Part shown: in pieces, positions 18,495 to 43,708 of the stretch
Position numbering within the stretch: the first letter of the stretch is position 1
Layout of the letters: each line of letters opens with the position of its first letter
Assembly: GCA_027450185.1 (NCBI GenBank)
Contig: DAIDKF010000009.1
Location: 1 to 64,000 of the forward strand
Direction of reading: 5' to 3'
DNA from: Granulicella sp.
GTDB lineage: Bacteria > Acidobacteriota > Terriglobia > Terriglobales > Acidobacteriaceae
Length of the DNA: 64,000 nt
Program-made: the position numbers and the translations under genes
Notes under the pieces: generated by a model
The model's database searches: none
Seen by the model: the letters and a program-made list of their open reading frames with translations, nothing else
What the model was told of the DNA's origin: nothing

Positions 18495-18510
18495 CAGTGA
18501 CTTAAGTTCC
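18495..18510. promoter_or_regulatory. CRP/FNR-like operator candidate upstream of ric
   Basis: CAGTGACTTAAGTTCC contains GTGAC-TTAA-GTTCC (18497-18510), centred at 18503.5. A TAGTGT box sits on the minus strand at 18474-18469, placing the centre at about -41.5 relative to the inferred start of transcription. The 14-mer CAGTGACTTAAGTT differs by one base from the copy at 21146-21159 between the radical SAM gene and nnrS. It sits inside a wider GGAACT...AGTTCC repeat (18489-18510). Confidence 0.5.
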
Positions 18511-18520
18511 CACCGCAAAA

Positions 18521-18540
18521 AAGATTTTCAGGATCATCTT
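18521..18540. promoter_or_regulatory. NsrR-like dyad candidate upstream of ric
   Basis: AAGAT at 18521-18525 and ATCTT at 18536-18540 bracket ten bases; the right half reads CATCTT. The outer half-sites resemble NsrR boxes (AAGATG...CATCTT), which control NO-repair genes elsewhere. Only the outer bases match, so this is weak. Confidence 0.25.
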
Positions 18541-18552
18541 GCGGACGAACGC

Positions 18553-18584
18553 TCCCCGGTTGCAGTCGTAGTTGCAACCGGGGA
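18553..18584. terminator. Strong hairpin between PAS gene and ric
   Basis: A perfect 12-bp stem, TCCCCGGTTGCA paired with TGCAACCGGGGA, encloses an 8-nt loop. It lies 55 bp beyond the stop of the PAS gene on its strand. No T-run follows on either strand, so this is a Rho-type or stabilising hairpin rather than a classical intrinsic terminator. It probably separates the PAS transcript from ric. Confidence 0.5.
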
Positions 18585-18638
18585 ACATTCGGGCGTGCGG
18601 GTATGCGACTGGCTACAGTTATCGTGCAGTGCGGCAAC

Positions 18639-19070
18639 CTACGATGCGGGCCTGGCTTCCAGCTCGGCCAACCGTTTGCGGAGGCTGCGCTCTTCGTTGA
18701 AGCGCGCGGTGTCATCGCGAATCACGGCGACGATGCCGGTTATGGCGTGCGTATCGGAGTGCAGCAACGCTACGGTGAAGGCGATGGACAACGCGCGACC
18801 GTCCTTATGCACGGCGGGCACACGCAGCAGATCGTTGCCGTAGCGCGTCTGGCCGGTCTGCATGGTCTTGTGATAGCCGTCCCAGTGACGCTGCTGCAGG
18901 CGTTGCGGGATGATTAAATCCAGCGACTGGCCAAGCGCTTCACTTTGGGTAAAGCCGAAGATGCGCTCTGCCGCCGGGTTCCACAACGTGATCGCACCGT
19001 TCGGGTCTGCGACGATGATCGCATCGCCGATGGATGAAACCAATTGCTCGAAATCAATGTTTGCTGGCAT
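18639..19070 (-). CDS. Single PAS-domain protein, possible heme sensor
   Basis: 143 residues, essentially one PAS domain: FEQLVSSIGDAIIVADPNGA, LWNPAAERIFGFTQSEALGQ, then IIPQRLQQRHWDGYHKTMQT. His62 in QQRHWDGY sits where FixL-type PAS domains carry the proximal heme His (RSRHDSYI). The C-terminal core has VPAVHKDGRALSIAFTVALL. A short coiled helix (EERSLRKRLAELEARP) ends the protein; there is no kinase, cyclase or HTH output domain. It may be a gas- or redox-sensing adaptor. I chose ATG 19070 (GGGAG ten bases upstream); the longer frame to 19292 encodes non-conserved residues. Heme binding is inference. Confidence 0.75.
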   Translation of the reverse strand: MPANIDFEQLVSSIGDAIIVADPNGAITLWNPAAERIFGFTQSEALGQSLDLIIPQRLQQRHWDGYHKTMQTGQTRYGNDLLRVPAVHKDGRALSIAFTVALLHSDTHAITGIVAVIRDDTARFNEERSLRKRLAELEARPAS

Positions 19071-19355
19071 AAGCGTGGCATCTCCCTGGAGCGATTGAAG
19101 ATCGGCATCAGGCGGCGCAGGGCCCTGATACGGCGAAGGAAAGCGCGAGGCACCGGGCCGCACGCCATCACCATGACGGCCGAGGACAGATGCCCTTGAT
19201 GGAATGAGTGTACGTCGAGCAAAGGAGGCGTGCTGTGACTTTAGTCGCAGGCCCGCCACAATCGCTGGAGCCCGGAATCTTGCGCGGAACACGCTTCAAC
19301 ATCACGTATCGTATTACGTCGTTGAGGGCTTGCAGAGAGATACCTTCGCTGCATG

Positions 19356-19892
19356 CTACTTGCGCCGTGCGCTGAACTCGTCTCCCATGCAGGCGATCGC
19401 TTCGCTGCTCAATACCTGCGCAGCATGCGGAAATACAATCGTCTCTTCGATGTGGATGTGCTCGGCATAGAGCTGCTTCAGCTCGCGCGTTTGGGACACA
19501 AGTCGTTCCTCATCATTGACCTCGAGCACACCGGCGGAGATCCACGCCGTGTAGAGCCAGTCCACGGATTGGTGGAGGTCCTCGGCATGACGATGGTCGC
19601 CTTCGAGGCGATCGATCACGTCCATGCTGTCCATGGGAGGCTCGGCACGCAAACGCGGGAAGAGCGACTGTTCTTCATCGGCCGAATGCCGCTGGCCGCC
19701 GACATGGAAGTAGCGCAACGCAGCCTGCACGGCGGACTGCTCCTCCTCGGTCAGGCTTCGCCTGCGCGCGCGGCCAGCCACCAGGAAGAGAATGTCGAGG
19801 AAGTGCTCAATCCTCCGATGGCAGTCCTTGAGCATACCAATTGGGTCAGTGAATCCGCTGTCTGGTTTCGCACCGATCTGTATGGCCATCAT
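19356..19892 (-). CDS. Hemerythrin HHE-domain protein
   Basis: 178 residues, four-helix hemerythrin-like bundle. Ligand motifs in order: LKDCHRRIEHFLDIL, HVGGQRHSADEEQSLFPRL, LEGDHRHAEDLHQSV and YAEHIHIEETIVFPHA, which give the H-HxxxE-H-HxxxE pattern of a di-iron site. Likely binds oxygen or NO, or stores iron in the cytoplasm. GAGAGG precedes the first of two adjacent ATG codons; either may be used. It follows the radical SAM gene on the same strand after 71 bp, so they are probably one transcript. Confidence 0.88.
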   Translation of the reverse strand: MMAIQIGAKPDSGFTDPIGMLKDCHRRIEHFLDILFLVAGRARRRSLTEEEQSAVQAALRYFHVGGQRHSADEEQSLFPRLRAEPPMDSMDVIDRLEGDHRHAEDLHQSVDWLYTAWISAGVLEVNDEERLVSQTRELKQLYAEHIHIEETIVFPHAAQVLSSEAIACMGDEFSARRK

Positions 19893-19963
19893 TCACCTCT
19901 CTCCCTTTGATTGTCATTGATCATTGAGACTTCGAGCATCCATCGTTTGTTGTGACGGCATCA

Positions 19964-21112
19964 TCATGCACCCTGCAAGACATGAAGCGTGGAGGCCTGC
20001 TTGAGAGCTGGCGGCGGCGCAACATAGCCCTTGGGAATGTAGGAGCAGCAGGGTTCCTCGGCATTCGGGTTTCCGGTCAGCGCATAGGCACGCGACCGCG
20101 ATCCTCCGCAGATCTCCTTGAACTCGCAGGCGCCGCATTTGCCCTCCAGCCTGGAGGTGTCGCGGAGGCTCAGAAAGAGTGGCGACTCGCGATAGATGGA
20201 GGCGAGTGCGTGCTGGCGGATGTTGCCTGCGCCAAGCGGCAGGAAGCCGCTCGGGTAGACATCTCCGGTGTGCGAGATGAAGACGAATCCCTTGCCGTCA
20301 TTGAGGCCACGCGGCGCGCGGCCAATTGCGTCGGCGGACTTCTCCGATGTTGCTGCGGAGTCGACGCCAGCCTTGCGCTCAGCGACTCGCTGCTGCAGAA
20401 GATAGCGGCGATAGTGCTGCGCCTCGGTTGTCTTGATATCAAAGCCTGCGGTCTTCGAGAGGGCATAGATGGTGGCGAAGATCTGCTCGAACTCGTCGGC
20501 GCTGAGCAGGTCATGGAGTTTTCCGCGGCCAGTGGGGACCAGGAAGAAGACGCTCCATAACGTGATGTTGAGGCTCTCCAACAGCGCGACCATGGCATCG
20601 ATCTCCGCGATGTTGCGGCGGCTGAAGGTGGTGTTGATCTGCACTGGCAGCCCAATTTCATTGGCCCAGCGAATCGCGTCCAGCGTACGCGCGAAGGAGC
20701 CGGACATTCCCCGGAAAGCGTCGTGCGTCTCGGCGCAGGCTCCATCCATGCTCACGGCCAGACGCGCGAGACCGGCTTCCTTCAGGCGAATCACCATCTC
20801 CCTTGTCAGCAGCGGAGTTGCGCTTGGAGTGAGCGAGACGCGAACACCCACGGTGTTGGCGTGACGAATCAGATCGAACAGGTCGGGGCGCTTGAGCGGG
20901 TCGCCACCGGTGAGTACGAACACGGGAATCTTCATGGCGGAGATCTGATCGATGAGATGCTTGCCTTCCTCGGTGCCAAGTTCCATCGGATGGCGGTCAG
21001 GCTGAGCAGAGGCGCGGCAATGCACGCAGGCAAGATCGCAGGCCTGCGTGACCTCCCAGATCGCGATGAAGGGACGTTCGTTGAAGTCGACAGTGTGGAC
21101 GAGCGGATTCAT
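19964..21112 (-). CDS. Radical SAM/SPASM enzyme (TIGR04053-like, NirJ/AhbD relative)
   Basis: 382 residues. The radical SAM cluster motif is CDLACVHC (Cys25, Cys29, Cys32), with FVLTGGDPLKRPDL (SAM-binding GGDP) next. The C-terminal SPASM region has CGACEFKEICGGSRSRAYAL and a final CC pair in AEEPCCSYIP for an auxiliary 4Fe-4S cluster. The closest functional relatives by layout are NirJ and AhbD, which modify heme side chains, and the TIGR04053 group found with NnrS-type genes; the actual substrate is unknown. ATG 21112 follows a TATAGT box so closely that the mRNA may be leaderless. It is divergent from nnrS across a shared 22-bp dyad. Confidence 0.85.
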   Translation of the reverse strand: MNPLVHTVDFNERPFIAIWEVTQACDLACVHCRASAQPDRHPMELGTEEGKHLIDQISAMKIPVFVLTGGDPLKRPDLFDLIRHANTVGVRVSLTPSATPLLTREMVIRLKEAGLARLAVSMDGACAETHDAFRGMSGSFARTLDAIRWANEIGLPVQINTTFSRRNIAEIDAMVALLESLNITLWSVFFLVPTGRGKLHDLLSADEFEQIFATIYALSKTAGFDIKTTEAQHYRRYLLQQRVAERKAGVDSAATSEKSADAIGRAPRGLNDGKGFVFISHTGDVYPSGFLPLGAGNIRQHALASIYRESPLFLSLRDTSRLEGKCGACEFKEICGGSRSRAYALTGNPNAEEPCCSYIPKGYVAPPPALKQASTLHVLQGA

Positions 21113-21143
21113 AGAACTATAAGACCGCAACCACGCTATGGTG

Positions 21144-21165
21144 CGCAGTGACATAAGTTACTGCG
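21144..21165. promoter_or_regulatory. CRP/FNR-like operator between radical SAM gene and nnrS
   Basis: A 22-bp imperfect dyad with CGCAGT/ACTGCG ends and core GTGAC-ATAA-GTTAC (21148-21161), centre 21154.5. On the plus strand a TAGCGT box at 21184-21189 puts it at -41.5 for nnrS. On the minus strand TATAG(T) at 21121-21116 puts it at about -43 to -45 for the radical SAM gene. It shares CAGTGACWTAAGTT with the ric upstream site. One site could serve both divergent genes. Confidence 0.55.
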
Positions 21166-21206
21166 GCTGCGATTGACGCTGACTAGCGTTGAGGGTGGAG
21201 GCAGTG

Positions 21207-22541
21207 ATGAGAGACGGCGCAGAGATCTCCACGCAGACCATGGTCGCTCGCGAACGGCAGAAGAGCCTGATGCTTCGTGCCTGGATTGGGAGTGGACTCT
21301 TCTTTATGGCGCTGCCCGGCACGTTGCTGGGCTTCTCCAACCTGATGGCCATTGCAACACATCACGGACTCGGCACGATTCCGGCTGCATGGATACAAGG
21401 CCATGGCCACGCGCAGATGTTTGGATGGATTGGGAGCTTTATCCTCGGCATCGGCTTCTATTCGCAGCCAGCGCATGGCCGTTCAGTGATACGGCTGCCG
21501 CTCTGGTGCTACGCGCTGTGGAGTACTGGCGTCGGGATGCGCTGGGTTGCAGGCATCTATGGCTGGCACTGGCGCATGCTCTATCCGTTGTCTGCTGGAT
21601 TTGAGTTGATTGCGGTGCTGCTTTTTCTCTTCGCTGCTTCGCACCATAAGCTGCCTGAAGGAACCAGGGGCGAACGCACGAAGCCTCCGATGGAACTATG
21701 GATGGTATCGGTGCTGCTGGGAACAGCGGGGCTTGCAGTAGCGGTCGTCTTCAATTTTGCCGAATGCGTCCACCTGGCGGCGAGTGGCAACGCTCGCGCA
21801 TTTCCGTACTCGCTCGATCAGAAGTATCTGGTGCTGACGGCGTGGGGATTTCTGGTGCCGGTGGTGTGGGGATTTTCTGCTCGCTGGTTGCACTCGTTCC
21901 TGGCCATCTCCACGCCCAACACCCGGATCATGGCCTACGCGTTGGAGCTGGATGTCGTCGGAGTTCTCTTCGGTGTTGCAGGGTGGGCCATCGCCGCGAC
22001 AATCGTGTTGGCTGCAGGCGCAGTCACTGTCGTCTTTGCGCTGCACCTGACGCAACGGCCTCATGGAAAGCCGAAAGTTATCGGCATCCATCCAAGCTTC
22101 CCGACGTTTGTACGCAGCGCGTATGCGTGGCTGGTGATTGCCGGGTCGATGAGCGTGTGGGCAGCAGTTGCGGATCATCACGGCGGCATCTGGGGTGCGT
22201 CTCGCCATGCGCTGACCGTGGGTTTTGCCGCCACGATGGTCTTCGCCATCGGGCCACGGATTCTGCCTCACTTCGCCGGCATCTATAGCATCTACAGCAA
22301 GCGATTAATGTTCCTCTGCCTGCTTCTGCTCCAGACTGGCTGCCTGCTGCGTGTTGCTTCTGAGCCGCTGGCCTATGAAGGCTTTTTCAACTTTGCATGG
22401 AAGGTGCTGCCCGTCTCCGGCACGCTGGAGTTGAGTGCCGTTCTTCTGTTCGCGCTCAATCTGCTACTCACCTTCGCGCTGGGACGCTCGTCGTTTTCGG
22501 CAGGTGCCCCGAACCACGCGGGGGCAGCAGAAGCCGCTTAG
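21207..22541 (+). CDS. nnrS: NnrS family membrane heme-copper protein
   Basis: 444 residues, about 12 membrane helices. Typical NnrS features include WIQGHGHAQMFGWIGSFILG (His-rich helix pair), GFSARWLHSFL, RHALTVGFAATMVFAIGPRI and ILPHFAGIYSIYSKRLMF. Founding members are co-regulated with denitrification genes and lower toxicity of NO and dinitrosyl iron complexes. ATG 21207 has GGAGG five bases upstream; a TTG 18 bases earlier is less likely. It is divergent from the radical SAM gene. The usual denitrification genes are absent here, which suggests a detoxification role. Confidence 0.92.
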   Translation: MRDGAEISTQTMVARERQKSLMLRAWIGSGLFFMALPGTLLGFSNLMAIATHHGLGTIPAAWIQGHGHAQMFGWIGSFILGIGFYSQPAHGRSVIRLPLWCYALWSTGVGMRWVAGIYGWHWRMLYPLSAGFELIAVLLFLFAASHHKLPEGTRGERTKPPMELWMVSVLLGTAGLAVAVVFNFAECVHLAASGNARAFPYSLDQKYLVLTAWGFLVPVVWGFSARWLHSFLAISTPNTRIMAYALELDVVGVLFGVAGWAIAATIVLAAGAVTVVFALHLTQRPHGKPKVIGIHPSFPTFVRSAYAWLVIAGSMSVWAAVADHHGGIWGASRHALTVGFAATMVFAIGPRILPHFAGIYSIYSKRLMFLCLLLLQTGCLLRVASEPLAYEGFFNFAWKVLPVSGTLELSAVLLFALNLLLTFALGRSSFSAGAPNHAGAAEAA

Positions 22542-24858: not shown

Positions 24859-24925
24859 GAATATATTGTAGGCGTATCGGCGTACATTCCGCGCCAGCAA
24901 TCCACGTCAGGAGAACCCTCTGTCT

Positions 24926-32094: not shown

Positions 32095-33149
32095 GGATTC
32101 ACCGTTTCCGTTGTGCCCTGTGGAGGCGTTGTTGGGGCGGATTCACCGGATGCAGAGGTCATGAAGGTCTGCTGCACGCGGTAGTTGGATTGCAGGTTCT
32201 TGATGAACTCGACCAGGTCAATCAGGCCATCTTCGCTGAGTTGCCCCTGGTACGTTGGCATGATGGGCGCAAAGCCAGCGGTCACATGCCTGGATGGATT
32301 CAGGATCGCGTCGCGTAGATATGCGTCGTCGACCAGAATCTGGCTGCCGTCGGTCAGCGTTAGCTTGGAACCATAGACCCCCGCAAGGCTTGGTCCGCGC
32401 GCGGCTGCCGTGCCGCTATGACAGGAGTTGCAGCCCATGCTTGCGAAGAGGCGTTCGCCATTCTGTGCCAGGCTCTGGCCTGATGTGGACTGCTCGAGCC
32501 ACTTCTTGTAATTTTCCGGGGTCATCACCGTCACTTCGCCGACCATGCCGGAGTGCTGCGTACCGCAGTACTGCGTGCAAAACAAGTGATACGTTCCAAC
32601 CTGCGTTGCTTCAAACCACACCGTCGTGTAGCGGCCGGGGATAGCTTCGCGCTTGATGCGGAAGTCCGGGATGGAAAAGCTGTGGAACACATCCTGCGAG
32701 ATCATGGTCAGTTGGACAGGCTTGCCAAGGGGCACGTGCAGCGCATTGATCTCGTGCTGCCCACCCGGGTGTTCCGCTTTCCACATCCACTGCTTGCCCA
32801 CAATGTAGATATTCATTGCGTTGGCCGGTGGGTCATAGATGCGGAAGTACAGCAGCGCGCCCCACACGAAGGTGACGAGGAAGATCGCGAGCGGAATAAT
32901 TGTCCATGTGGCTTCAAGCAGCGTAGAACCTTCGATCTGCGTCGCCACAGGATTTTTTTCGCGCCGGTAGCGGATGGAGAACACCAGCATCAGAACTGCT
33001 ACCAGCGCCGTTCCGACGATGGTCATCAGCACGAGAAAAAAGTACAACGCGTCGACATACGGTGAAATGCCACTCGCCTCCGCCGGAAACAGCGAGGAGT
33101 TGTGCAGCCACTTCACGAGAAATTGCCACAATACCGGACTAAGTCCCAT
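32091..33149 (-). CDS. ctaC: Cytochrome c oxidase subunit II with fused cytochrome c (caa3 type)
   Basis: 352 residues. Two N-terminal helices ([20 protein letters not shown] and [20 protein letters not shown]), a cupredoxin domain with the CuA site [17 protein letters not shown] plus [14 protein letters not shown], then a C-terminal cytochrome c domain with CNSCHSG and [10 protein letters not shown] (axial Met). The fusion defines a caa3-type oxidase that takes electrons directly or from ACIII. Last residues are Thr/Pro-rich. Start codon 33149; the sco stop is three bases upstream. Confidence 0.96.
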
Positions 33150-33152
33150 CGT

Positions 33153-34163
33153 TTAGCCTTTATCCATTTCACCGGACTTTTTTTTGTCCGGCTGAGGGGT
33201 GTCTTGTTCGTGCGCAAGCTGGATATCGCGCCGAAACATTAAGAAGATGAAGCTGCCCAGCGACGCTACCGTAACGATACCGCCCAACTGAACGGCCCGC
33301 ACCACCATGAGGGAGTGCTTGTCGGTCTGCGGATCGTAGCGATAACAATAGGTCAGAATGTTTGCTACAGGCGATCCAATCTTATTTCCGGATGCGTCGA
33401 TGAGTCCTAGAAGCACGTCCTTGGGTGAGTACTCAACGCCGAGGTAGTACTGCGCAAGCTTGCCTTGGGGAGTGGCAAGTTCAATCGAACTCGCATGCGC
33501 GAATTGCGTGAGCCTGCCATCAGGCCCCGGCACGCGCACATAGCCAAACCCGACAGCGTTGGTGACAGCGTCTATCGCGGGCTGCTGTCCGGTCAGATAG
33601 TGCCAGCCTCCGGCCGTAGCGGGATGGCCGTAGCGGCGCAGATAGAAGGCCTTCTTCTCTGCTGCCAGCCTGGGTGTTTCAGCGGGATCGATGCTGACGA
33701 TCACAATTTGGAAATCCTTGCCGGGCACCAGGTTGACCATCTCAAGCGCGCTGGTCAGGCCATCCATCTCCTCCGAGCAGAGCATCGGGCAGTTGTAGTA
33801 CACCGTGGTGAGCACCACCGGGTGCTTGCCATCGAAGTACTTCCCCAGCGTGACCGGTTGCCCGGCGTCGTCGACAAACGGAGCATCGAGGGGCAGTTGT
33901 GCATTGAGGTGTTGGGTGACCTGTACTTTTTTTAGTACGGTCGGCAACTGATCGCCTACATTGTCTCCCTCGGTCTTGTCGCCGTAGCTGGAGACCTGGG
34001 CGCCACACCGCAGCGGCGCAGCCAGCAGGCCAAGCCCCAGCACCAGACCCGCAGTGGCTGCGAGGCTGGCTACGATGCTGCGGGTTTTGGTTGCTGCGAT
34101 CACCTTGTTCCTGCTCTCTGGACTGCTGTGCGATTGCGGCTCATCGTGCGGCCGCGTTGACAC
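33153..34163 (-). CDS. SCO1/SenC-type CuA assembly factor
   Basis: 336 residues with an N-terminal membrane helix (IVASLAATAGLVLGLGLLAA), a thioredoxin-like SCO domain with NCPMLCSEEMDG (Cys pair) and FAHASSIEL (conserved His), and an unusual second C-terminal helix (GGIVTVASLGSFIFLMF). The Cys2-His set loads copper into CuA of subunit II. The C-terminal membrane tail is as found in the alternative complex III-linked SCO proteins. It sits between a membrane protein of unknown function and ctaC. Confidence 0.93.
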   Translation of the reverse strand: MSTRPHDEPQSHSSPESRNKVIAATKTRSIVASLAATAGLVLGLGLLAAPLRCGAQVSSYGDKTEGDNVGDQLPTVLKKVQVTQHLNAQLPLDAPFVDDAGQPVTLGKYFDGKHPVVLTTVYYNCPMLCSEEMDGLTSALEMVNLVPGKDFQIVIVSIDPAETPRLAAEKKAFYLRRYGHPATAGGWHYLTGQQPAIDAVTNAVGFGYVRVPGPDGRLTQFAHASSIELATPQGKLAQYYLGVEYSPKDVLLGLIDASGNKIGSPVANILTYCYRYDPQTDKHSLMVVRAVQLGGIVTVASLGSFIFLMFRRDIQLAHEQDTPQPDKKKSGEMDKG

Positions 34164-34180
34164 GCTTTCTGCTTCGCGCT

Positions 34181-34858
34181 TTATTGCTTTCCTTCAGCGC
34201 GGTTGAACTCGTTTTTCTCTTCACGTGCCGCGATGGTCTGTAGTTCATATCCAGTGCGCGCGAATCCGTTGGTCAGCGGCGCCGTCACGGTAGGCGCAGT
34301 CTCTCCTGCCATCAGAGTGCCCGAAGTTTGCGGGGAGGATGCCTGCGGCAGGCCGCGCTGGAGAAGCAGTTGCATCGCGCGATCGATCGGAATACGGATT
34401 GTACCCGCAGGCAAATCCGACGAACTGCTGTAGTAGTTCAACAACAGATCCTCGCGTGCATGCAGATCAGCAAGGTCCTGATTGCCGTCGTCCGCTTCGA
34501 GGCGTGGCGTCGCAAAGGCCTGCGTCATCTGCTGCAACTGGCGTTGTTGCATGACGGCACTGGAGGTCAGATCCTCGCGCTTCTCTCCGCGCGGGGTTGC
34601 GCCGACCGTGGACAGATTCGTGTGCCATTTATCTGCTGTCCCATCATGCTTCACGAGCGCATAGTTGATCGCCTTCCCCATGGCAAAGGCGAAGAAGAAA
34701 AAGATCACCACGAAGCCCGACAGGCCTGCAAGAAACGTGATGACGCCGCCGACGCTTACATCCTCGACCTCGTAGCCGGGGTGTTCGCTGTCAGGCACCG
34801 ACGACCGATGCGCGATGACGTCCTGGGGCTGGCCCCTGTCTGGTCCCTCAGTGTGCAT
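34181..34858 (-). CDS. Single-TM protein of the ACIII-oxidase operon, unknown function
   Basis: 225 residues. One strong helix at about 37-60 (VGGVITFLAGLSGFVVIFFF) separates a short N-terminus from a long soluble part with ALVKHDGTADKW, Gln-rich QQRQLQQMTQAF, LNYYSSSSDLPAGTIRIPID and an Ala/Thr-rich tail. The last part has RIPIDRAMQLLLQRGLP, similar to the small helper domains seen in ACIII operons. It has no cofactor motif. The gene start overlaps actF by 11 bp and it precedes sco by 17 bp, so it is almost certainly made with the complex; a helper or accessory subunit is the likely role. Confidence 0.75.
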   Translation of the reverse strand: MHTEGPDRGQPQDVIAHRSSVPDSEHPGYEVEDVSVGGVITFLAGLSGFVVIFFFFAFAMGKAINYALVKHDGTADKWHTNLSTVGATPRGEKREDLTSSAVMQQRQLQQMTQAFATPRLEADDGNQDLADLHAREDLLLNYYSSSSDLPAGTIRIPIDRAMQLLLQRGLPQASSPQTSGTLMAGETAPTVTAPLTNGFARTGYELQTIAAREEKNEFNRAEGKQ

Positions 34859-36191
34859 GTTCAGGCTCCAAAAGCTCTTCGGTGTGCGGATCGTTCAGGT
34901 TGATCAGCGGCCGCTTCATCAACTCGGTCAGGTAAAACACCATCCAGAAAGCAACGACCGAGATGGGCACGGTGACGTAGGCCAGTATCCCGATATTGCC
35001 TGCGATGTGCAGGTTGCTGGCAGCGTCTCGGAAGTTTGGCTCGATCAGCCAGAACATGTCGATCAACCTGGCGACCAGCATGAAGCAGCACAGCCAGATC
35101 ATCTTGCTCTTCGAGCGCTTGATGTCGCGCGACAGCAGCAGGGAGAACGGAATCACCCAGTGGCAGATCACGTCCAGCGAGCAGATGACCCACCAGCCGC
35201 CGTGGATGCGGTGCAGGTACCAGGGGATTTCGTCCGGTACGTTGCCTGACCAGATGATGAGGAACTCCGCAAAGGTGAGATAGATATTCAGCATGACGAA
35301 GGCGAAGGCCAGCTTGCCGAGATCGTGTTGCTCGGTGATGCGGAACATCGTCTTCATCGGCTCATAGCGCGAGAGCAGAATCAGCGTGAGAATGCCCAGC
35401 GCCAGCACGGCGTAGCCCTGCGCCACGAGAAACTGCAACCCATACACCGACGAGTACCAGGTCACGTCGAGCGACTTCACAAACAGAATCACGAAGTCGG
35501 TCATCAGAAGGACGTAGAGGAGAATGGACGGGCCGGAGAGATTTTCGAAGCGTACCCGCCACTTGTCGAAGCTCGCCTGCGTTCCAGCAGTGGGGTCGTT
35601 GTCGCGCTGTATCGACCAGTGATTCAGCAGGGTGATCACGAGCGCCATCCATCCCAACACGATGGCCGCCTGAAAAACTGCCGCGACCGGGTTCAGCATC
35701 GCTTGCTTGGAGGTTGCGGTGAGTTGTTGCTCCTGCGTCATCAACCCCTGCTTGAGAGCCTCCAATTTGGCTGCCGCAGTGGGGAACGCGGCCCACTGAT
35801 AGAGGTGCTTCATCAGCAGCAAAATGGGGAGGGTCATGGCGATGAGCACCCAGATGGTGCGGGTCATGGCTTCGAGCGGGCGGCGCAGAATCTGCCCCCA
35901 CTTGCCGCCCGACACGTATTGCACCATCAGGAATGCGAGCGCTCCGCCAACAAAGTTGAAGCAGGTCATGTAGCCCATCAGGTAGGCGCGCAGCAGATGG
36001 TTGCGGCCCTCATGCGTTCCCAGGAAGGCGAGCGAGAGGAGCGCGAAGACAATCGCCACAATGCCGGCGCGCGTGCGCCATGTTGTGACGACGCCGGGTG
36101 CTGCCAGAACGGCGGGCAGTGTGCGCGGACGATGAGCTACAGCATGTCCCATTGCCAGGTCCGCTCCATGATGTTCGTTTGCCATTTCCAT
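34848..36191 (-). CDS. actF: Alternative complex III quinone-binding membrane subunit ActF
   Basis: 447 residues, about ten helices, relative of the NrfD-like ActC fold. Segments include MTCFNFVGGALAFLMVQYVS, GQILRRPLEAMTRTIWVLIA, FVILFVKSLDVTWYSSVYGL and MLVARLIDMFWLIEPNF. ActF pairs with ActC in ACIII (quinol:cytochrome c oxidoreductase). The Asp/Glu/His-containing helix NHWSIQRD and WSGNVPDEIPWYLHRIHGGW are typical of the subunit. It overlaps the next gene; start is ATG at 36191 or three codons later. Confidence 0.9.
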   Translation of the reverse strand: MEMANEHHGADLAMGHAVAHRPRTLPAVLAAPGVVTTWRTRAGIVAIVFALLSLAFLGTHEGRNHLLRAYLMGYMTCFNFVGGALAFLMVQYVSGGKWGQILRRPLEAMTRTIWVLIAMTLPILLLMKHLYQWAAFPTAAAKLEALKQGLMTQEQQLTATSKQAMLNPVAAVFQAAIVLGWMALVITLLNHWSIQRDNDPTAGTQASFDKWRVRFENLSGPSILLYVLLMTDFVILFVKSLDVTWYSSVYGLQFLVAQGYAVLALGILTLILLSRYEPMKTMFRITEQHDLGKLAFAFVMLNIYLTFAEFLIIWSGNVPDEIPWYLHRIHGGWWVICSLDVICHWVIPFSLLLSRDIKRSKSKMIWLCCFMLVARLIDMFWLIEPNFRDAASNLHIAGNIGILAYVTVPISVVAFWMVFYLTELMKRPLINLNDPHTEELLEPEHAH

Positions 36192-36257
36192 GCGTCAGTC
36201 GCCTTCAATCTCGTAGTTGCTTATCTTGTTGACTAGTCGCTGTTGCCTAGTCGCTGC

Positions 36258-37085
36258 CTAAAATGGTTTGCCATACGGCGTGCCGTTTGAAACTGGCGCG
36301 GCCGGTTCTCCGCCAGAGTCGCGCTGTCCGGAGTTCTCCGTCGCAGCCTTGCCGTAGTGCGCTCCTGCACCTGCCGGCGGCGTCCCCATCGGCTGGCCGG
36401 GGATTCCATTATCCTGACCGTTCGGGGTTCCGTAGACGGCTGTCGAAGGCAGCGCCCACGGATCCGCAAAACCGTTTGGCATACCCAGATCCTTCGCAAT
36501 GGCGTGAAGATCTTCGACGTGACCGTTCGGCGCAACATCGCTCGGCTTTGCATCCTGGCTTAGCTGCAACGCCCGTATATATGCAGCGACGGCCCAGCGG
36601 TCTGCCGGTGTCAACTGCGCAGAGTAATCGGGCATTGCGCCATAACCATTGGTCATCACCGTGAAGAAATGTCCGAGCGGGGCATTGCGAAGACGGTCCG
36701 TGTGGAAGTTGCCCGCGGGGCGATATCCACGCTGCACGATCATGCCCGCGCCATTGCCCACGCGAGAGTGACATGGCGCGCAGTAGATGTTGTAGCGCTC
36801 CTGCCCGCGCTCAAGCGTTGCGGCGTTCAAAGGAATCGGCAGGCCGTCGCCCTCTTTTGCGTCCTGGATGCCGGTATAGAAGTAAGCGTCCTGATCCATC
36901 TGATTGCGCGCGACGGTGTCTTCCACCTGCGGCCGCACCGAGCGTCCCGATGCAAAGAACGTGGTTCCGCGCTGGGGAATAAACTTCGGCTGATTGTGCA
37001 TATCCTGGCGGCAACCCGCCAGCACCAACATCGCCGTCATAGCCGCAGGCCCCGCAATCTTGCGCATCGTCCGCATTCCTCGCAT
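36258..37085 (-). CDS. actE: Alternative complex III monoheme cytochrome c ActE (lipoprotein)
   Basis: About 275 residues. The signal peptide ends in LVLAGC, a lipobox, so it is probably a lipoprotein. The mature part has MHNQPKFIPQRGTTFFASGR (family start of ActE), a heme site CAPCHSRVGNG and an axial-Met region GYGAMPDYSAQLTPADRW. Transfers electrons from ActA/quinol site to the oxidase. Three in-frame Met codons (37085, 37076, 37067) precede the signal sequence; the first was chosen. The Gly/Pro-rich C-terminus is low-complexity. Spacing to actD is 41 bp. Confidence 0.9.
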   Translation of the reverse strand: MRGMRTMRKIAGPAAMTAMLVLAGCRQDMHNQPKFIPQRGTTFFASGRSVRPQVEDTVARNQMDQDAYFYTGIQDAKEGDGLPIPLNAATLERGQERYNIYCAPCHSRVGNGAGMIVQRGYRPAGNFHTDRLRNAPLGHFFTVMTNGYGAMPDYSAQLTPADRWAVAAYIRALQLSQDAKPSDVAPNGHVEDLHAIAKDLGMPNGFADPWALPSTAVYGTPNGQDNGIPGQPMGTPPAGAGAHYGKAATENSGQRDSGGEPAAPVSNGTPYGKPF

Positions 37086-37126
37086 CGTCTTTCGTGATCC
37101 CTGTACCCTAACCCCTGATCCCTGTC

Positions 37127-37669
37127 TCAATGGTCAACCTCCACCACGGAGACTGGCGAAAACTGCTCCAGGAACTCACGCGTCTTTGCACCCTCGAACC
37201 TTGGATCATTCGCTTCGAGACAGAGGAAGAATTTATCCGTCGTCGCTCCGCTGGCGAAGTTAGGCGCGTTGAAGAGCGGGTGATACAACTGCGGCAATCC
37301 ATTCAACGCAATCATCCCGAAGGCCGCCGAGAGGCCGGCAAACAGAATCGTCATCTCATAGGCGGGAACCACAAACGCGGGCCAACTGAACAGCGGCATG
37401 GCGCGAAGATTCAGCGGATACCCCCACACGTTGATCCAGATCTCCAGCAGCGCTCCGGTCGTGAGGCCGGCGAGTCCGCCCAGCAGGCACAGCAGCGGCA
37501 CGCGCGTCTTGTGGAAACGCAGCGCCTCTGCGGCCTCTTCGACCGGATACGGTGTGTAGCACTCCATGCGGCGATAGCCCGCACGATGGGCCATCTCTGT
37601 TGCATGCACCAACTCACTCGGCGTATTGAACTCGGCCAGCAGGCCGTAGACTCCCTCGCGCGGCGGCAT
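37127..37669 (-). CDS. actD: Alternative complex III membrane subunit ActD (DUF3341)
   Basis: 180 residues. PREGVYGLLAEFNTPSELVH and YTPYPVEEAAEALRF are the soluble N-terminal DUF3341 signatures. Two helices follow (VPLLCLLGGLAGLTTGALLE and VVPAYEMTILFAGLSAAFGM), then NGLPQLYHPLFNA and a C-terminal TDKFFLCLEANDPRF. ActD is structural in ACIII. Its ATG overlaps the actC stop by one base (TAATG), implying coupled translation. Confidence 0.92.
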   Translation of the reverse strand: MPPREGVYGLLAEFNTPSELVHATEMAHRAGYRRMECYTPYPVEEAAEALRFHKTRVPLLCLLGGLAGLTTGALLEIWINVWGYPLNLRAMPLFSWPAFVVPAYEMTILFAGLSAAFGMIALNGLPQLYHPLFNAPNFASGATTDKFFLCLEANDPRFEGAKTREFLEQFSPVSVVEVDH

Positions 37670-39108
37670 TAGAGCGCCTCCTGGACAACAACTTCTGCAT
37701 CGGCGCCACCTGGACGCACCTTGGTCTGTGGCAGCATCATCCGTATCTCCGACATGGGCACCATCGGCGCCAGCCGCGCAAACAACAGGAACAGCGTGGT
37801 GAATAATCCCCAGGTCCCGATGAACAGCATGTAGTCCCACTTGGTGGCGCGATAGGTGCCCCAGCTTGACGGCAGATAGTCTCGATACAGGCTGGTCACG
37901 ACGATGACGAAGCGCTCAAACCACATCCCGATGTTCACCACGAACGACAGGAAGAAAAGGTAGCCGACATTGACGCGCAGCTTGCGACTCCACAGCGTCG
38001 TCAGCGGAATGGCAAGGTTGGTGAGGATCAGCACCCAGTATGCCCAGCCCATTGGCCCGAACATACGGTTCCACATCATGAAGAACTCCCAGTGGCTAGC
38101 CGAGTACCAACTCATGAAGACTTCCATGCCATACCCATAGCCCACGATCGAGCCCGTGGCCAGCATCACCTTCGCCATGTTGTCGAGATGCCGCAACGTC
38201 ACCAGGTCTTCGAGGTGATAGAACTTGCGGATCGGAATCGCCAGCGTCAACACCATCGCAAAGCCGGAGTACACGGCGCCGGCGACGAAGTACGGGGGGA
38301 AGATGGTTGTATGCCAGCCGGCCATTGCGGCCACTGCAAAGTCGAAGCTGATGGTGGTGTGCACCGAGAGCACCAGCGGCGTAGACAATCCCGCCAGCAG
38401 CAGTGACGCAGACTCATAACGTATCCAGTGGCGTGTCGAACCTCTCCACCCCAGGCTCAGCATGCCGTAGATGTACTTCGCCAGCGGCATTGTTGCGCGG
38501 TCGCGCAGCGTACCCAGATCCGGAATCATGCCGATGTACCAGAACACCACCGAGATCGTTGCGTACGTCGAGACCGCGAAGACGTCCCAGGCCAGCGGAC
38601 TGCGGAACTGCGGCCACACATTCATCGTGTTCGGATACGGCAGCAGCCAGTAGCCAAGCCACGGACGGCCTACGTGCAGCAACGGGAACATGCCGGCGCA
38701 TACGACGGCGAAGATCGTCATCGCCTCTGCAAAGCGGTTGATCGAGTTGCGCCAGGTCTGTTTGAACAGCAGCAGAATCGCGGAGATCAGCGTTCCCGCG
38801 TGGCCGATACCGATCCACCAGACAAAGTTGATGATGGCAAAGCCCCACGCTCCCGGAATCGTAATGCCCCAAATTCCGACGCCCTTCAGCACCAGCCACG
38901 TAACAGCGATGACGACGCCCAGCGCAACTGTTGCTGCGAGGAACAGGCCGCCCATCCACGCGATCGGCGTGTTGGACGTCAGCACGATGCCCGCGATCTT
39001 CTGCGTCACACTCTTGAACGTCTGCCCCGGCGCAATCACCGCGTACTCGCCGGTGCGCGGGTCAATCATCGGATCAACGATCTCCGGAATGGGTCCTTGG
39101 GTTGCCAT
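37669..39108 (-). CDS. actC: Alternative complex III NrfD-like quinol-binding subunit ActC
   Basis: 479 residues, about ten helices. WWIGIGHAGTLISAILLLFK is the conserved His-containing helix of the quinol pocket; FRSPLAWDVFAVSTY, LVLSVHTTISFDFAVA and HLDNMAKVMLATGSIVGYGY are further ActC/NrfD signatures. Oxidises menaquinol or ubiquinol on the periplasmic side. The ATG at 39108 is three bases from the actB stop; the frame open to 39288 is inside actB and not used. Confidence 0.94.
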   Translation of the reverse strand: MATQGPIPEIVDPMIDPRTGEYAVIAPGQTFKSVTQKIAGIVLTSNTPIAWMGGLFLAATVALGVVIAVTWLVLKGVGIWGITIPGAWGFAIINFVWWIGIGHAGTLISAILLLFKQTWRNSINRFAEAMTIFAVVCAGMFPLLHVGRPWLGYWLLPYPNTMNVWPQFRSPLAWDVFAVSTYATISVVFWYIGMIPDLGTLRDRATMPLAKYIYGMLSLGWRGSTRHWIRYESASLLLAGLSTPLVLSVHTTISFDFAVAAMAGWHTTIFPPYFVAGAVYSGFAMVLTLAIPIRKFYHLEDLVTLRHLDNMAKVMLATGSIVGYGYGMEVFMSWYSASHWEFFMMWNRMFGPMGWAYWVLILTNLAIPLTTLWSRKLRVNVGYLFFLSFVVNIGMWFERFVIVVTSLYRDYLPSSWGTYRATKWDYMLFIGTWGLFTTLFLLFARLAPMVPMSEIRMMLPQTKVRPGGADAEVVVQEAL

Positions 39109-39110
39109 CG

Positions 39111-42100
39111 TTATGCAAGCTCCGCGTTCGGGTTGATGACGCCAGCGGTATACGTCGTGCGCGGGCGGTAGTTCAAATCTGCGAGCACCTGGTAGTCGCG
39201 CTCCTCGGCCTTGCGCTTGACCACGCGCGACTTTGGATCGTTGAGATTGCCGAAGACGATCGCATCGGTCGGGCAAGCCTGCTGGCACGCCGTCTGAATC
39301 TCTCCATCCGCGATGGCGCGATTGTTCTTGTCGGCCTCAATCTTCACCGCCTCGATGCGCTGAATGCAGTAGCTGCACTTCTCCATCACGCCACGCGAGC
39401 GCACTGTTACATCCGGGTTGCGCATGAGCTTCAAGCTCTCAGTGTCGTAATCCGAGTACAACAGGAAGTTGAACCGGCGCACCTTGTACGGGCAGTTGTT
39501 CGAGCAGTAGCGCGTTCCAACGCAGCGGTTATAAACCATCGTGTTGATGCCCTCCGGCGTGTGGACCGTCGCACCCACCGGACAGACCTGCTCGCAGCCG
39601 GCGCTCTCGCAATGCTGGCAAAGCATCGGCTGGAAGTGCGCCATGGGCGCATGCAGATCGCCTTCGAAGTAGGTGTCGATACGCATCCACTGCATGATGC
39701 GGCCGATCTTCACCTGCTCGCGTCCCACCACCGCAATGTTGTTCTCCGCATAGCAGCTCACGATGCACGCATTGCATCCGACGCAGGAGTTCAGATCGAT
39801 CGACATCCCCCACTTGTTTTGCAACACCTTGCCCGCACTCACTTCCATCACATGGTCGTAGCGCCAGTTATCGGGGTAGAAACTGTCATCGTGCGGAACG
39901 GCCTCCCCTTGCGGGTTGTAGCCGACCTTATTCACCAGCGTGTCGTTGGAATCCTTCGTGCCAAGATGCGCGAAGTCAGGATTCTTCATCGCCTCTTCGT
40001 AGGTCGCGTAGCGAATGATGGACCGCTCCATCGCCTCATGTCCCGCCAGCGAATAGGTGCCCTGCGTATCAAACTCCGGATGCTCCAGATCGCGCTGCGC
40101 GAATGCTCCGCGATGCTCTATATTGTGCACCTTGGTGACGCACAAGTCGTACGATCCCTTACCACGCGCAATCGTCAGTCCGCCCGCAGAGAGCGGCTGA
40201 TCCGAGGTCCGCAGAGCATACGCATTGAAGCCAACGCCGGCGCCAACGCGTCCGCACTCCGCGCGTCGCCCTTGCCCCAGATGCACCGTCACAACATCGT
40301 TAGGATGTCCGGGCGCCATCAGCACCGGCGTAATGACCCTGCGGCCATTGAGCGCCAGCTCGATCGCCTCATTCTCCTCGATGCCCAGCTTGCCCATCAG
40401 ATCCATATTCATGAGCGCCGCATTATCCCAGCTCATGTTGGTCACCTGCTTGGGCAGTTCCTGCAGCCAGCCGTTATTGCCGTAGCGGCCGTCATAGAGC
40501 GAAGGATCGGGGCGGAAGCTGATCTCGATGCCGCTGCCCGCGCTCGCTGGAGTGACCACACCACTCTTCGGCGCACCGAGCGTCTTCGGCACGAACGCCG
40601 TGTCCGCAACCCAGCCATCATGCAGCGCCTTGCGCCACGCCATCTGGAACGGCGTGCTGGCCCGCGCCACGCCAAGAGCAGCCTTCGCCGCAGCCTCCGC
40701 GGCCGCGCTGTTTCCGGTACCGCTGGCCGCCGGAACAGGCACACTCGCGGCCACGGTCTTCACTTCGTCTCCGCCCGGCGCGTTGATATAAGTCTTCGCG
40801 TTGGCGAGCACCAGCTCATACGCGCTCACCTGCGGATCGATCAGCGTCTGCAGAATATCGTGCGCGCTCTTGCCGCCATACAGCGGCTCAATCATCGGCT
40901 GCACAATCGAGATGGTGCCGTCGTATGCGCGGGTGTCTGTCCAGCTCTCGAGGTAGTGCGACTTGTTGATATGCCACGTCGAGTAGAAGCCGGTCTCGTC
41001 CACATGCGAGCCAAGATGCACGCTGTATGGCACCTTGTTGAACGCGTCTTCAAAGTTCAAATCTACCGGAGCGTTGTAGAGCGGATTGACGCCCAGCATC
41101 ACCAGCCACTCGACCTTGCCAGCGTTCATGTCCGCGACCAGCGCCTTCATATCCGACACATGCTCGCTCGGGATCGGCACCACCGTCTCGGTGTAGAAGA
41201 CCGTCTTGCCGACCGCGCCCAGTCCCGCATTCACCGTCAGAGCCGCATTGTGCGCCGCCTGCGAACTGGACGGTCCAACGACGATCGCAAACCGGCCGCC
41301 GGACTTCTTGATGTCCTTCATCACGACGGACAAAAACTTCTGCGCCTCGGTATTGCTCAGCGTCGAGTTCCCGCCCGCCAGCGCATTCGCAAACTGGTCG
41401 ATCTCGCTCGGCTTGAGCGCCAGGCGATGCTCGGCCTTGAAGCCCGTCACCGTCGGCATCGTTTCGACGACGTAGAGCCGGTTCATCGGCTTGTCTTTGT
41501 CAAAGCGATGGCGTCCGGCCCAGGCCGCCGACATCGGGAGGAATCCAGGGAACCCGATTCCACCCAGAAAATCCGCATCCAGCGCAAGAATCACATCCGC
41601 ATCTTCGAGCTTGTACTGCGTGTCGTAGTAATCGCCAAACGCAGCCTTTGATGCAGCACGGCCCGCGTCGTTGTTCACCGGTTCATACTGCACCAGCTTC
41701 GCCTGCGGATACTTCGCCTGCACCTGCTTCCACTGCGCAGCCAGCGTCGGCGACGTAATCGTCTCCGAGAGGAACACCACGCCGTCACCGGTCTTGCTTG
41801 CCGCAACCGCCTTCGCAAACTCCTGCTGGAAGCGGCTGAAGTCCGCCTGCTCTCCACGGAAGCGCGGAAACTGCGAGCGGTCCGGATCATACAGATCGAG
41901 CAACGACGCCTGCGTAAACGCATCCGACTTGCCCTTCGCTATCGGGTGCTCGGGATTGCCCTCCAACTTGATGGGGCGGAACGCATCCGACTTCACCAGC
42001 ACCGGAATCGCGCCCGTCGGGAACGGATGCGCCGTAGCAAAGTACATCGGCTTGCCGAGCACCAGGTCTTCAGGCTGCTTCACATACGGAAAGATCGGCT

Positions 42101-42458
42101 CCTCGGGCTGCTTGGTGCATCCGGCCAGTCCGGCCAGGGCAAAGCTTGCGCCCATCACCTTCAGGAAGCCGCGCCGCGAGACGGAGTCTACCCACTCGCC
42201 TGCCGACGCCTGGCGTGGAAACTCCTCCTGCATCAACTCCTGAAATGCCGGCGTATCGGCCAGCTCATCCAGACTCTTCCAGTAACGCTTGCCGCTCTTG
42301 CCCTGCAGTCTGGCCCGCACTTCAGCCAGCGTCATCTTCGACGTCGACGGGTGAGCCGGCGCAATCGCCGTCACAACCTGCGCTGCCTGCGCGCCTACCC
42401 CCTGCGCTTCACTCTCTACCGCCATCGCCTGCTCGATTCCTATGCGCGTCTCATTCAT
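39111..42458 (-). CDS. actB: Alternative complex III iron-sulfur / molybdopterin-like subunit ActB
   Basis: 1115 residues. A long N-terminal leader carries a Tat motif SRRGFLKVMGASFALAGLAG (94-113), as is usual for ActB. The middle is a molybdopterin-oxidoreductase-like domain that lacks a cofactor in characterised ACIII. The C-terminal ferredoxin-like domain has CVGCNACIVSCYAENN, CQHCESAGCEQVCPVGA, CVGTRYCSNNCPYKVRRFN and CSYCIQRIE with CQQACPTDAI, giving four Fe-S clusters. Start ATG 42458 overlaps the actA stop (ATGA), so I preferred it over a Met three codons upstream. Confidence 0.95.
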   Translation of the reverse strand: MNETRIGIEQAMAVESEAQGVGAQAAQVVTAIAPAHPSTSKMTLAEVRARLQGKSGKRYWKSLDELADTPAFQELMQEEFPRQASAGEWVDSVSRRGFLKVMGASFALAGLAGCTKQPEEPIFPYVKQPEDLVLGKPMYFATAHPFPTGAIPVLVKSDAFRPIKLEGNPEHPIAKGKSDAFTQASLLDLYDPDRSQFPRFRGEQADFSRFQQEFAKAVAASKTGDGVVFLSETITSPTLAAQWKQVQAKYPQAKLVQYEPVNNDAGRAASKAAFGDYYDTQYKLEDADVILALDADFLGGIGFPGFLPMSAAWAGRHRFDKDKPMNRLYVVETMPTVTGFKAEHRLALKPSEIDQFANALAGGNSTLSNTEAQKFLSVVMKDIKKSGGRFAIVVGPSSSQAAHNAALTVNAGLGAVGKTVFYTETVVPIPSEHVSDMKALVADMNAGKVEWLVMLGVNPLYNAPVDLNFEDAFNKVPYSVHLGSHVDETGFYSTWHINKSHYLESWTDTRAYDGTISIVQPMIEPLYGGKSAHDILQTLIDPQVSAYELVLANAKTYINAPGGDEVKTVAASVPVPAASGTGNSAAAEAAAKAALGVARASTPFQMAWRKALHDGWVADTAFVPKTLGAPKSGVVTPASAGSGIEISFRPDPSLYDGRYGNNGWLQELPKQVTNMSWDNAALMNMDLMGKLGIEENEAIELALNGRRVITPVLMAPGHPNDVVTVHLGQGRRAECGRVGAGVGFNAYALRTSDQPLSAGGLTIARGKGSYDLCVTKVHNIEHRGAFAQRDLEHPEFDTQGTYSLAGHEAMERSIIRYATYEEAMKNPDFAHLGTKDSNDTLVNKVGYNPQGEAVPHDDSFYPDNWRYDHVMEVSAGKVLQNKWGMSIDLNSCVGCNACIVSCYAENNIAVVGREQVKIGRIMQWMRIDTYFEGDLHAPMAHFQPMLCQHCESAGCEQVCPVGATVHTPEGINTMVYNRCVGTRYCSNNCPYKVRRFNFLLYSDYDTESLKLMRNPDVTVRSRGVMEKCSYCIQRIEAVKIEADKNNRAIADGEIQTACQQACPTDAIVFGNLNDPKSRVVKRKAEERDYQVLADLNYRPRTTYTAGVINPNAELA

Positions 42459-43330
42459 CGGTGGCACACCTCACAGCTGGACAGCTCGTTGGCCGTGCGA
42501 ATGTGGTACTGCTTCATCAGGTAATGTCCCAGTTCATCCTGGCTGGTGAACTTCACATAGTTGGCCGGCATCGCCACGGCCGGCGAAACGTCCGCAACCG
42601 TCTGCGCCTTGTCCAGTCCAGCGGAACTGCTCAGTCCGGCAGGCTGGCTCATCTGCGCCATCTCAGGATTATTCGCCGCCGGATCGGTGACTACGCACGC
42701 CACCTGCTGCGCCGTCGGTCCCGCCGCGCCGGTGGTCGAGCACCACACCGGCTTATCGCTCGAAGGCCCGGCCCACGCCATGTTGTAGATCTCCGCCGTA
42801 GGCCGCAGATTCACCGCCGGATTGCGATGGCAGTTGAGGCACCACTCCATCTGCAGCGAGTTCTGCATGTACATCAGCGGCATCTCGTCCACCCGGCCAT
42901 GGCAGCTCGCGCATCCAATGCCCTTGTTCACATGAATCTCGTGATTGAAGTACACAAAGTCCGGAAGGTCATGCACCTTGATCCATTGGATCGATGCTCC
43001 CGTCGCCCAACTCTGCCGCACGGGCTCCAGCAGGTTCGCGTTCGTCCAGATCTGCGAGTGGCAGTTCATGCACGTCTTAGTCGGCGGTATGCCCGCGTAC
43101 GAACTCTTCTCCACCGACACGTGGCAGTACTGGCATTGCAACCCAAGCCCCTCCACATGATGCTTATGGCTGAAGGGTATCGGCTGATCCGGACGCTGTC
43201 CCTGCCTGGTCACCCACGGCGACCGTTGCAAGCTGTTCAGCGCCACCCCGAGTGCGATGACGATCAGTCCCGACAACACCAGGCTTGCGCGAGCCAGGGC
43301 ATTCGAGCTGCGGTCAAATACTTGCGCCAT
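42455..43330 (-). CDS. actA: Alternative complex III pentaheme cytochrome c ActA
   Basis: 291 residues with an N-terminal anchor (LVLSGLIVIALGVALNSL). Five CXXCH sites are visible: CQYCH 66-70, CMNCH 87-91, CASCH 140-144, CLNCH 164-168 and CEVCH 286-290. Receives electrons from quinol oxidation and passes them to ActE/oxidase. First gene of the 12-gene act-sco-cta operon. Its 120-bp leader follows a promoter region with a TGTGA-N6-TCACG site. Confidence 0.96.
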   Translation of the reverse strand: MAQVFDRSSNALARASLVLSGLIVIALGVALNSLQRSPWVTRQGQRPDQPIPFSHKHHVEGLGLQCQYCHVSVEKSSYAGIPPTKTCMNCHSQIWTNANLLEPVRQSWATGASIQWIKVHDLPDFVYFNHEIHVNKGIGCASCHGRVDEMPLMYMQNSLQMEWCLNCHRNPAVNLRPTAEIYNMAWAGPSSDKPVWCSTTGAAGPTAQQVACVVTDPAANNPEMAQMSQPAGLSSSAGLDKAQTVADVSPAVAMPANYVKFTSQDELGHYLMKQYHIRTANELSSCEVCHR

Positions 43331-43708
43331 GAATACGTTCCTGCTTCCCCTGCGTCAGAGGTCCACTGTTGAGGTTGTTGACGACGATTTTGTTGCCGAC
43401 GATTCGTGTTCCCACCGGTTCAGGCCACGCCTGAAGACGATAGTTTTTGCGAAAATGAGTATAGCAGTCAAAAGAAAAAGATGTGATGGCGATCACGTTA
43501 CATGCATCGATACCCGCAATTTTAGACGCTAATCGACCAAACTGACGACTCCATCGATTTTTCTCCCGATATTTTCCCCTCTCACACCGCGAGCGAACCA
43601 AAGTGCATACTCCATGTTGCCGGAGCAAGTCTCGTTGCCGCACGAGCCTTGCGCCCTTCCCACAGATATTTCCTCAACCATCTCCACAGGGTGCCGGCTC
43701 CGCCGCCT
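43331..43708. promoter_or_regulatory. Divergent control region of the act-cta operon
   Basis: A 378-bp gene-free stretch, AT-richer than its neighbours. On the minus strand an extended -10 (TGCTATACT, TATACT at 43463-43458) and a dyad TGTGA-TGGCGA-TCACG (43482-43497; core GTGAT-GGCG-ATCAC, centre 43489.5) form a promoter with an activator site 38-41 bp before the inferred start. Only a poor -35 is present, as expected for a class II activated promoter. The 5' part next to the AlkA gene shows nothing else I recognise. Confidence 0.6.

Follow-up and report, generated by a model that had tools for sequence, protein, structure and literature searches.

The core nitric oxide (NO) regulon and its control by CRP/FNR-family proteins are already known (PMC1274295), and a review of ric, which encodes an Fe-S repair di-iron protein, names NsrR, DnrD, NorR and SrrAB among its regulators (PMC9268430). 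In HcpR regulons, a CRP/FNR protein lacking the FNR cysteine cluster lies beside hcp and controls hcp and sometimes dnrN, that is, ric (PMC1274295; for HcpR of P. gingivalis, PMC12750200). DNR of Pseudomonas and other bacteria is a CRP/FNR protein that activates NO genes, in some genomes including nnrS and ric (dnrN) (PMC1274295, PMC8510549), while NnrR of alpha-proteobacteria activates nnrS and NO reductase (PMC1274295). Quinol NO reductase is described in soil Acidobacteria without dissimilatory nitrate or nitrite reductases (PMC5900883), and a literature search among open-licence papers found nothing on an acidobacterial NO regulon, on NO-defence control or on the motif GTGACnWWAGTCRC. Here we analyse a 64,000-nt stretch of a Granulicella sp. 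genome (the window; on contig C9 of genome G000, which is 54% complete). Its palindromic sites (dyads) at 18497, 19235 and 21148, before ric, a PAS gene and an nnrS-like gene, are probably operators of one CRP/FNR-family NO-defence activator encoded beside hcp, from which the dyad before the act-cta genes stands apart.

The dyads at 18497, 21148 and 43483 lie exactly where an initial annotation of this DNA had placed them as copies of one operator, and the dyad at 19235 was absent from its list. As read from the sequence, the sites at 18497, 19235 and 21148 fit one motif, aGTGACnWWAGTCRCtG, and are called NO-type below. The ric promoter consists of the following features:

17733..18449, minus strand: ric, an Fe-S repair di-iron protein with ScdA_N and hemerythrin domains (PF04405, PF01814; TIGR03652, 220 bits against a cut-off of 204.7)
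18497..18510, minus strand: NO-type dyad of ric, GGAACTTAAGTCAC in the ric direction, with a degenerate distal half; centre 54 bp from the ATG
18469..18474, minus strand: -10 box TAGTGT of ric, 29.5 bp from the dyad centre

Public genomes were scanned with the Ric protein of the window, and the best 80 of 336 confirmed relatives were taken as ric loci; 79 were examined upstream, L057 being left out for want of upstream sequence. The results show that a GTGACnnnnGTCRC-type dyad precedes ric in 68/79 acidobacterial loci when at least 9 of the 10 scored positions must match, and in 76/79 when 8 suffice; among background windows of equal size, 88 of 1975 come up to 9/10 positions. No dyad at the lower threshold was found in L094, L098 or L114 among these 79, and 19 loci contain two or more. 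The stack of 76 ric sites yields aGTGACnWWAGTCRCtG, with little information over most of the spacer to the -10 box. Specifically, a TAnnnT box starts 29.5 bp after the dyad centre in 57 of the 76 loci and 30.5 bp after it in 13, and between 12.5 and 47.5 bp just three other offsets occur, in one locus each. With 70/76 loci at 29.5-30.5 bp, the -10 boxes place the dyad centre near -41.5, and we read the ric promoters as being of strict class II CRP/FNR geometry. The ric site of the window agrees with its nearest orthologues in the 54 bp to the ATG, in the proximal half and in the -10 box, and is taken as a weakened but conserved site; its own score is weak because the distal half-site GGAAC is degenerate, so that this site rests on orthology.

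The other two NO-type sites of the window lie upstream of three genes, one site being common to a divergent pair:

21148..21161, no strand assigned: NO-type dyad GTGACATAAGTTAC, common to the divergent radical SAM and nnrS-like genes
21184..21189, plus strand: -10 box TAGCGT of the nnrS-like gene, 29.5 bp from the dyad centre
21207..22541, plus strand: NnrS-like membrane protein, 444 aa, named from its relatives' PF05940 matches
19964..21112, minus strand: radical SAM/SPASM protein of family TIGR04053 (491.5 bits against a cut-off of 395)
19356..19892, minus strand: second hemerythrin-type protein (PF01814), 72 bp downstream of the radical SAM gene and possibly in an operon with it
18639..19070, minus strand: single-domain PAS protein, 143 aa (PF00989, TIGR00229)
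19235..19248, minus strand: NO-type dyad before the PAS gene, GCGACTAAAGTCAC in the PAS direction; centre 171 bp from the ATG
19207..19212, minus strand: -10 box TACACT of the PAS gene, 29.5 bp from the dyad centre

We scanned the window with a matrix built on the 76 sites of the ric orthologues, the window's own site being left out. The three top scores fell at 19235 (25.6, or 19.9 in the PAS direction), 21148 (23.8) and 18497 (15.4, in the ric direction), each with its -10 box exactly 29.5 bp towards the gene (TACACT, TAGCGT and TAGTGT, respectively); the next-best score, 12.8 at 47976, has no -10 box. In a held-out test, with the 7 nearest relatives removed from training, the combined dyad and -10 scores were 28.8 for the nnrS-like gene and 22.8 for the PAS gene, against 20.8 for the best of 150 Markov sequences of the window's length. 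The loose pattern GTGAYN4RTYMC has 6 matches in the 64 kb, where shuffled sequences average 1.6 and 3/100 reach 6; as this is just about four-fold over chance, the case must rest on conservation. Its matches at 18870 and 55404 were dropped, as neither is among the ten best matrix scores of the window.

Conservation was observed at the shared dyad as well. In 9/9 aligned same-genus loci, its centre is separated from the ATG of the nnrS-like gene by 52-53 bp and from that of the divergent radical SAM gene by 41-42 bp; this alignment leaves out two same-genus genomes, G004 (a 56%-identical nnrS-like copy) and G011 (a fragment). The radical SAM genes of G004 and G046 each have a separate dyad at a similar distance, and G014 carries an equivalent PAS dyad in the same place (L219 10948). 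The conservation and the -10 spacing support the proposal of the initial annotation that ric and the nnrS-like gene have a common CRP/FNR-type operator, apparently in the class II position (29.5 bp from dyad centre to first base of the -10 box, centre near -41.5), and the NO/Fe-S-repair logic that it drew between the two genes likewise stands. The check that the initial annotation had set for its proposal, conservation of the dyads upstream of orthologues, was passed for ric and for the nnrS-like gene in the loci counted above. Its wording of about 38-45 bp between dyad centres and -10 boxes was off, since TAGTGT and TAGCGT sit at 29.5 bp and the act box TATACT at 26.5 bp.

Regarding the name of the NnrS-like protein, the window sequence matched no Pfam or NCBIfam family, and a PF05940 search of the genome did not bear out the name for it either. 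Among the 26 members of its alignment, 19 matched PF05940 NnrS at E 1 or better (best 5e-17), so the designation is drawn from relatives and stays provisional for the window protein; 9/26 match COX1 too. An nnrS-like gene is present in the fetched stretch of 29/80 ric loci.

To the radical SAM side, the initial annotation had assigned the -10 box TATAG, which we rejected because the transcription start would fall within the gene. The T-rich boxes TCTTAT, TTACAT and TTTCAT near 30 bp are poor -10s. Class II action towards this gene implies that the transcript would begin at its ATG, and a poor T-rich box with a leaderless start, unproven as it is, would fit the constant spacing better than TATAG.

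To see the NO-type sites beyond these promoters, we chose 20 regions from relatives and the own genome by dyad matches or an nnrS-like neighbourhood. Together with the window they contain 37 dyads of at least 17 bits, ric promoters included, of which 32 carry TAnnnT on a side within 1 bp of the 29.5-bp spacing, 25 of them exactly there, with about 2% expected. The genes so placed are ric, nnrS-like genes, hcp (Prismane), a Fer4_5 membrane Fe-S protein gene, quinol NO reductase (PF22085, COX1) and PAS genes. The gene of a transporter nearest to NarK, scoring under the NarK model cut-off, is placed in the same way, and a multihaem cytochrome gene has a dyad and no good -10. The candidate regulator gene of the own genome lies between hcp and the Fer4_5 gene, each of which has a dyad and a -10 at 29.5 bp. 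These NO-type sites appear to form a DNR/HcpR-like regulon with a motif of its own. As a separate observation, NO-type dyads of relatives occur in pairs 70-300 bp apart between divergent ric and hcp, before the NarK-like gene and before the NO reductase gene (L217 6666/6735, L222 5026/5129, L215 5987/6289).

The motif was compared with those of the described regulons. The HcpR motifs are wyTTGACnnnnGTCAArw, wTGTGAnnnnnnTCACAw or GTAACnnnnGTTAC, unlike GTGACnWWAGTCRC; the outer GTGA..TCAC agrees with the Desulfovibrio form, and the full motif with none of the three. Unlike in HcpR systems, moreover, most of the regulator genes adjoin ric, and the range of targets is broader. DNR reads TTGATnnnnATCAA and NnrR ctTTGcgnnnncgCAAag / TTGcgnnnncgCAA (PMC1274295), and the stack of 76 sites matches none of these; the candidate regulator is also only distantly related to DNR in sequence (3dkw, 66.7 bits).

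No CRP/FNR regulator gene is encoded in the window, as the initial annotation had noted: the own genome has 6 HTH_Crp_2 matches and contig C9 has 0. One of the six lies directly after hcp (G000:C10:53801-54490) and belongs to the CRP/FNR superfamily by PF00027 and PF13545, both over cut-off. Its orthologues (at least 100 bits) lie just upstream of ric in 49/80 loci, 27 of them in divergent and 22 in codirectional arrangement. A further 8/80 loci carry one at another place in the stretch, and none was seen in the fetched stretches of the other 23/80; hcp linkage is found in the own genome and G005, most orthologues adjoining ric instead. We then scored the regulator (E 1e-40 or better) and the nnrS-like gene across 101 genomes, a weak nnrS-like match in G052 (E 1.6e-11) being counted as absent. 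Both occur in 36 genomes, the nnrS-like gene only in 5, the regulator only in 13 and neither in 47 (p=2e-11, kinship ignored here and in the following values). In the same order, the counts are 9/2/0/17 within the genus (p=8e-6), 29/12/11/49 at a 47% identity cut (p=1e-7) and 25/16/7/53 at 54% (p=2e-7). The motif, the fixed spacing, the conservation, the gene linkage and the co-occurrence are all observed for the NO-type system.

The recognition helix of the regulator has R, E and R invariant in 80/80 rows, which fits the published correlation of positions 180/181 with the half-site (the R180/E181 rule; PMC1274295). The [4Fe-4S] FNR cysteine group is not present, as just two cysteine columns, conserved in 77/80 and 78/80, pass 30% in the 80 rows. 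No NCBIfam family scored above its cut-off for the regulator, the CRP model giving 71.9 bits against 266. At the position aligned with what we take to be the cAMP-holding arginine of CRP, the regulator has Tyr. By sequence, its nearest solved proteins are actinobacterial and Thermus CRPs, followed by DNR. The AlphaFold model of the L037 orthologue, with a predicted local distance difference test (pLDDT) value of 91.6, has CRP-type PDB matches; the query template modelling (TM) score is highest for HcpR 9day among the 50 matches listed (0.63, with Thermus CAP at 0.60 and DNR at 0.59), which does not decide the family.

On this basis we infer that the hcp-linked protein is the binder, that it activates and that NO is its signal. 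A regulator dimer, encoded outside the window directly after hcp, would bind aGTGACnWWAGTCRCtG centred near -41.5 and, acting as a class II activator, would recruit RNA polymerase to promoters whose -10 box reads TAnnnT. Predicted targets in the window are ric, the nnrS-like gene, the PAS gene and, with less assurance, the divergent radical SAM gene; hcp and the membrane Fe-S protein gene would be further targets in the own genome.

The dyad before the act-cta genes belongs to a different motif:

43483..43496, minus strand: dyad GTGATCGCCATCAC before the act operon
43458..43463, minus strand: -10 box TATACT (extended TGCTATACT) of actA, 26.5 bp from its dyad centre
30418..43330, minus strand: act-cta region with a multihaem cytochrome (42455-43330), Fe-S protein, NrfD, cytochromes c, COX2 and COX1 (Pfam; open reading frames scanned)

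We examined 30 act loci up to 600 bp upstream and found a GTGA-N6-TCAC dyad 25.5-27.5 bp before TATACT in 12, all in the genus; the dyad of G001 has a different core (GTGATAGAGGTCAC) and that of G006 lies at 30.5 bp. The pattern GTGAYCGCYRTCAC was matched 52 times in 41 genomes, whereas its reversed form, a crude control, gave 7 matches. Most likely, this dyad is a separate operator, that of a cysteine-bearing FNR-like protein (G000:C3:25611-26330), so that act would answer to a second, oxygen- or redox-type regulator. The protein, at 80% identity or more, is present in 10/25 genus genomes, and the act dyad occurs in 10/10 genomes with it and in 1/15 without it (G004, with a 62% copy; p=3e-6). 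Its N-terminus carries, like that of FNR, a cysteine group, C-x2-C-x8-C in 16/17 aligned rows, the three cysteine columns being filled in 17, 16 and 17 of 17; unlike FNR, it would read a CRP-type GTGA half-site instead of TTGAT, and the fourth cysteine is present in 11/17 rows. FNR-like proteins with this N-terminus are encoded in the own genome (L002) and in relatives (L256-L268, L271), and a universal-stress-type gene adjoins in the own genome and G019.

The missing full conservation of the fourth cysteine, together with TGTGA-N6-TCAC as the classical CRP form (PMC1274295), could instead suggest a cAMP- or carbon-responsive CRP as the owner of the act dyad. We regard this as unlikely, if still a serious contender: all 15 FNR-like loci have GTGA-N6-TCAC dyads flanking the gene, 28 in total against 2.5 expected, and ACIII-caa3 superoperons respond to O2 in cultured Acidobacteria, being up at low O2 in one and down in another (PMC8407424).

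For the NO-type sites, several observations weigh against their assignment to one activator beside hcp. With the 7 nearest relatives left out, the ric site of the window scores under the dyad cut of 8 bits when read towards ric, and 5/37 dyads lack TAnnnT at the usual spacing. Dyads upstream of nnrS-like genes become patchy beyond the genus, with 5-6 credible in 20 loci. Whole-genome counts of the exact pattern are no more than modestly raised, at 49 matches against 31 for the control in 49 regulator-positive genomes, while 51 regulator-negative genomes have 27 against 41. The co-occurrence p values carry no kinship correction, and the loosest regulator cut lets in paralogues of 36-45% identity, because G013 has a second copy at 38%. 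No regulator was found in G064, G065 and G075 (95-97% complete), which have an nnrS-like gene, nor in G014 (89% complete) and G020 (59%), which have both the gene and a dyad. One genome, G022, was dropped from the pattern counts on account of a repeated palindrome; this same-genus genome without the regulator has the perfect palindrome GTGACTTTAGTCAC at 8 dispersed places (contigs C2, C4, C5, C15, C16 and C20), and the copies look as if they were part of a repeated element.

Since G014 and G020 keep NO-type dyads, since there are several CRP/FNR genes per genome and since the own genome is incomplete, the operators might be real yet bound by another CRP/FNR paralogue, with the hcp/ric-linked protein a bystander. 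We consider this improbable, given that the protein is found with ric in 57/80 loci and with hcp in the own genome and G005, and given its co-occurrence with the nnrS-like gene. Assignment of the NO-type operators to the linked protein is preferred.

The proposal of the initial annotation that one regulator binds all three of its dyads and joins NO defence with act-cta is more doubtful still. In its favour, the dyads share the outer bases GTGA..TCAC, which the same R-E-x3-R helix would read, and in the genus the act dyad also follows the NO-type regulator (8/8 with it against 3/17 without, p=1.5e-4); since both regulators correlate, the difference between them depends on G001 together with the incomplete genomes G014 and G020. 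However, the core of the act dyad is GC, its scores with the NO matrix are -12.2 and -15.5, and its distance to TATACT is 25.5-27.5 bp rather than 29.5. G001 (99% complete) has the act dyad and neither an nnrS-like gene nor the NO-type regulator; conversely, no act dyad is found in G035 and G046, outside the genus, whose regulator is 76% identical, nor in G039 and G044, where the regulator match is just 36-39%. The FNR-like protein tracks the act dyad better, as given above. Differences in core, spacing and distribution led us to reject a single operator for the three dyads. The claim of a common operator holds for ric (18497) and for the nnrS-like and radical SAM pair (21148), and that of class II placement for ric and for the nnrS-like gene; a share of act-cta in the operator is not supported, and the single-regulator link to it fails. 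Cross-binding of the act dyad by the NO-type regulator may still occur.

Lastly, the modest excess of the loose pattern would leave room for chance resemblance. Conservation and the constant -10 spacing refute this reading at 21148 and for the ric family of sites, and its probability is negligible.

Among neighbouring features, a molybdopterin oxidoreductase gene (22651-24900, minus strand; PF00384, PF01568, PF04879) is convergent with the nnrS-like gene. Beside ric, two long frames overlap, one at 16071-17690 (minus strand) without a match and one at 15912-17447 (plus strand) with a weak Pyr_redox_2 match of 33.8 bits.

Together, these results give acidobacterial NO defence a named candidate regulator, a motif, a promoter geometry and a testable target list, and would add two unstudied genes, those of the PAS protein and the TIGR04053 radical SAM enzyme, to the NO-defence set. 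They also tell two look-alike GTGA dyads apart, which advises caution against motif-only annotation. More speculatively, and with rather less than even confidence, the regulator may represent an NO-responsive CRP/FNR clade of the Acidobacteriota's own, distinct from DNR, NnrR and HcpR, with two conserved cysteines and an operator of its own, and acting as a class-wide NO-defence switch, in which one symmetric dyad would drive two back-to-back class II promoters, that of the radical SAM gene being leaderless. If true, the TIGR04053 radical SAM enzyme would belong to NO defence.

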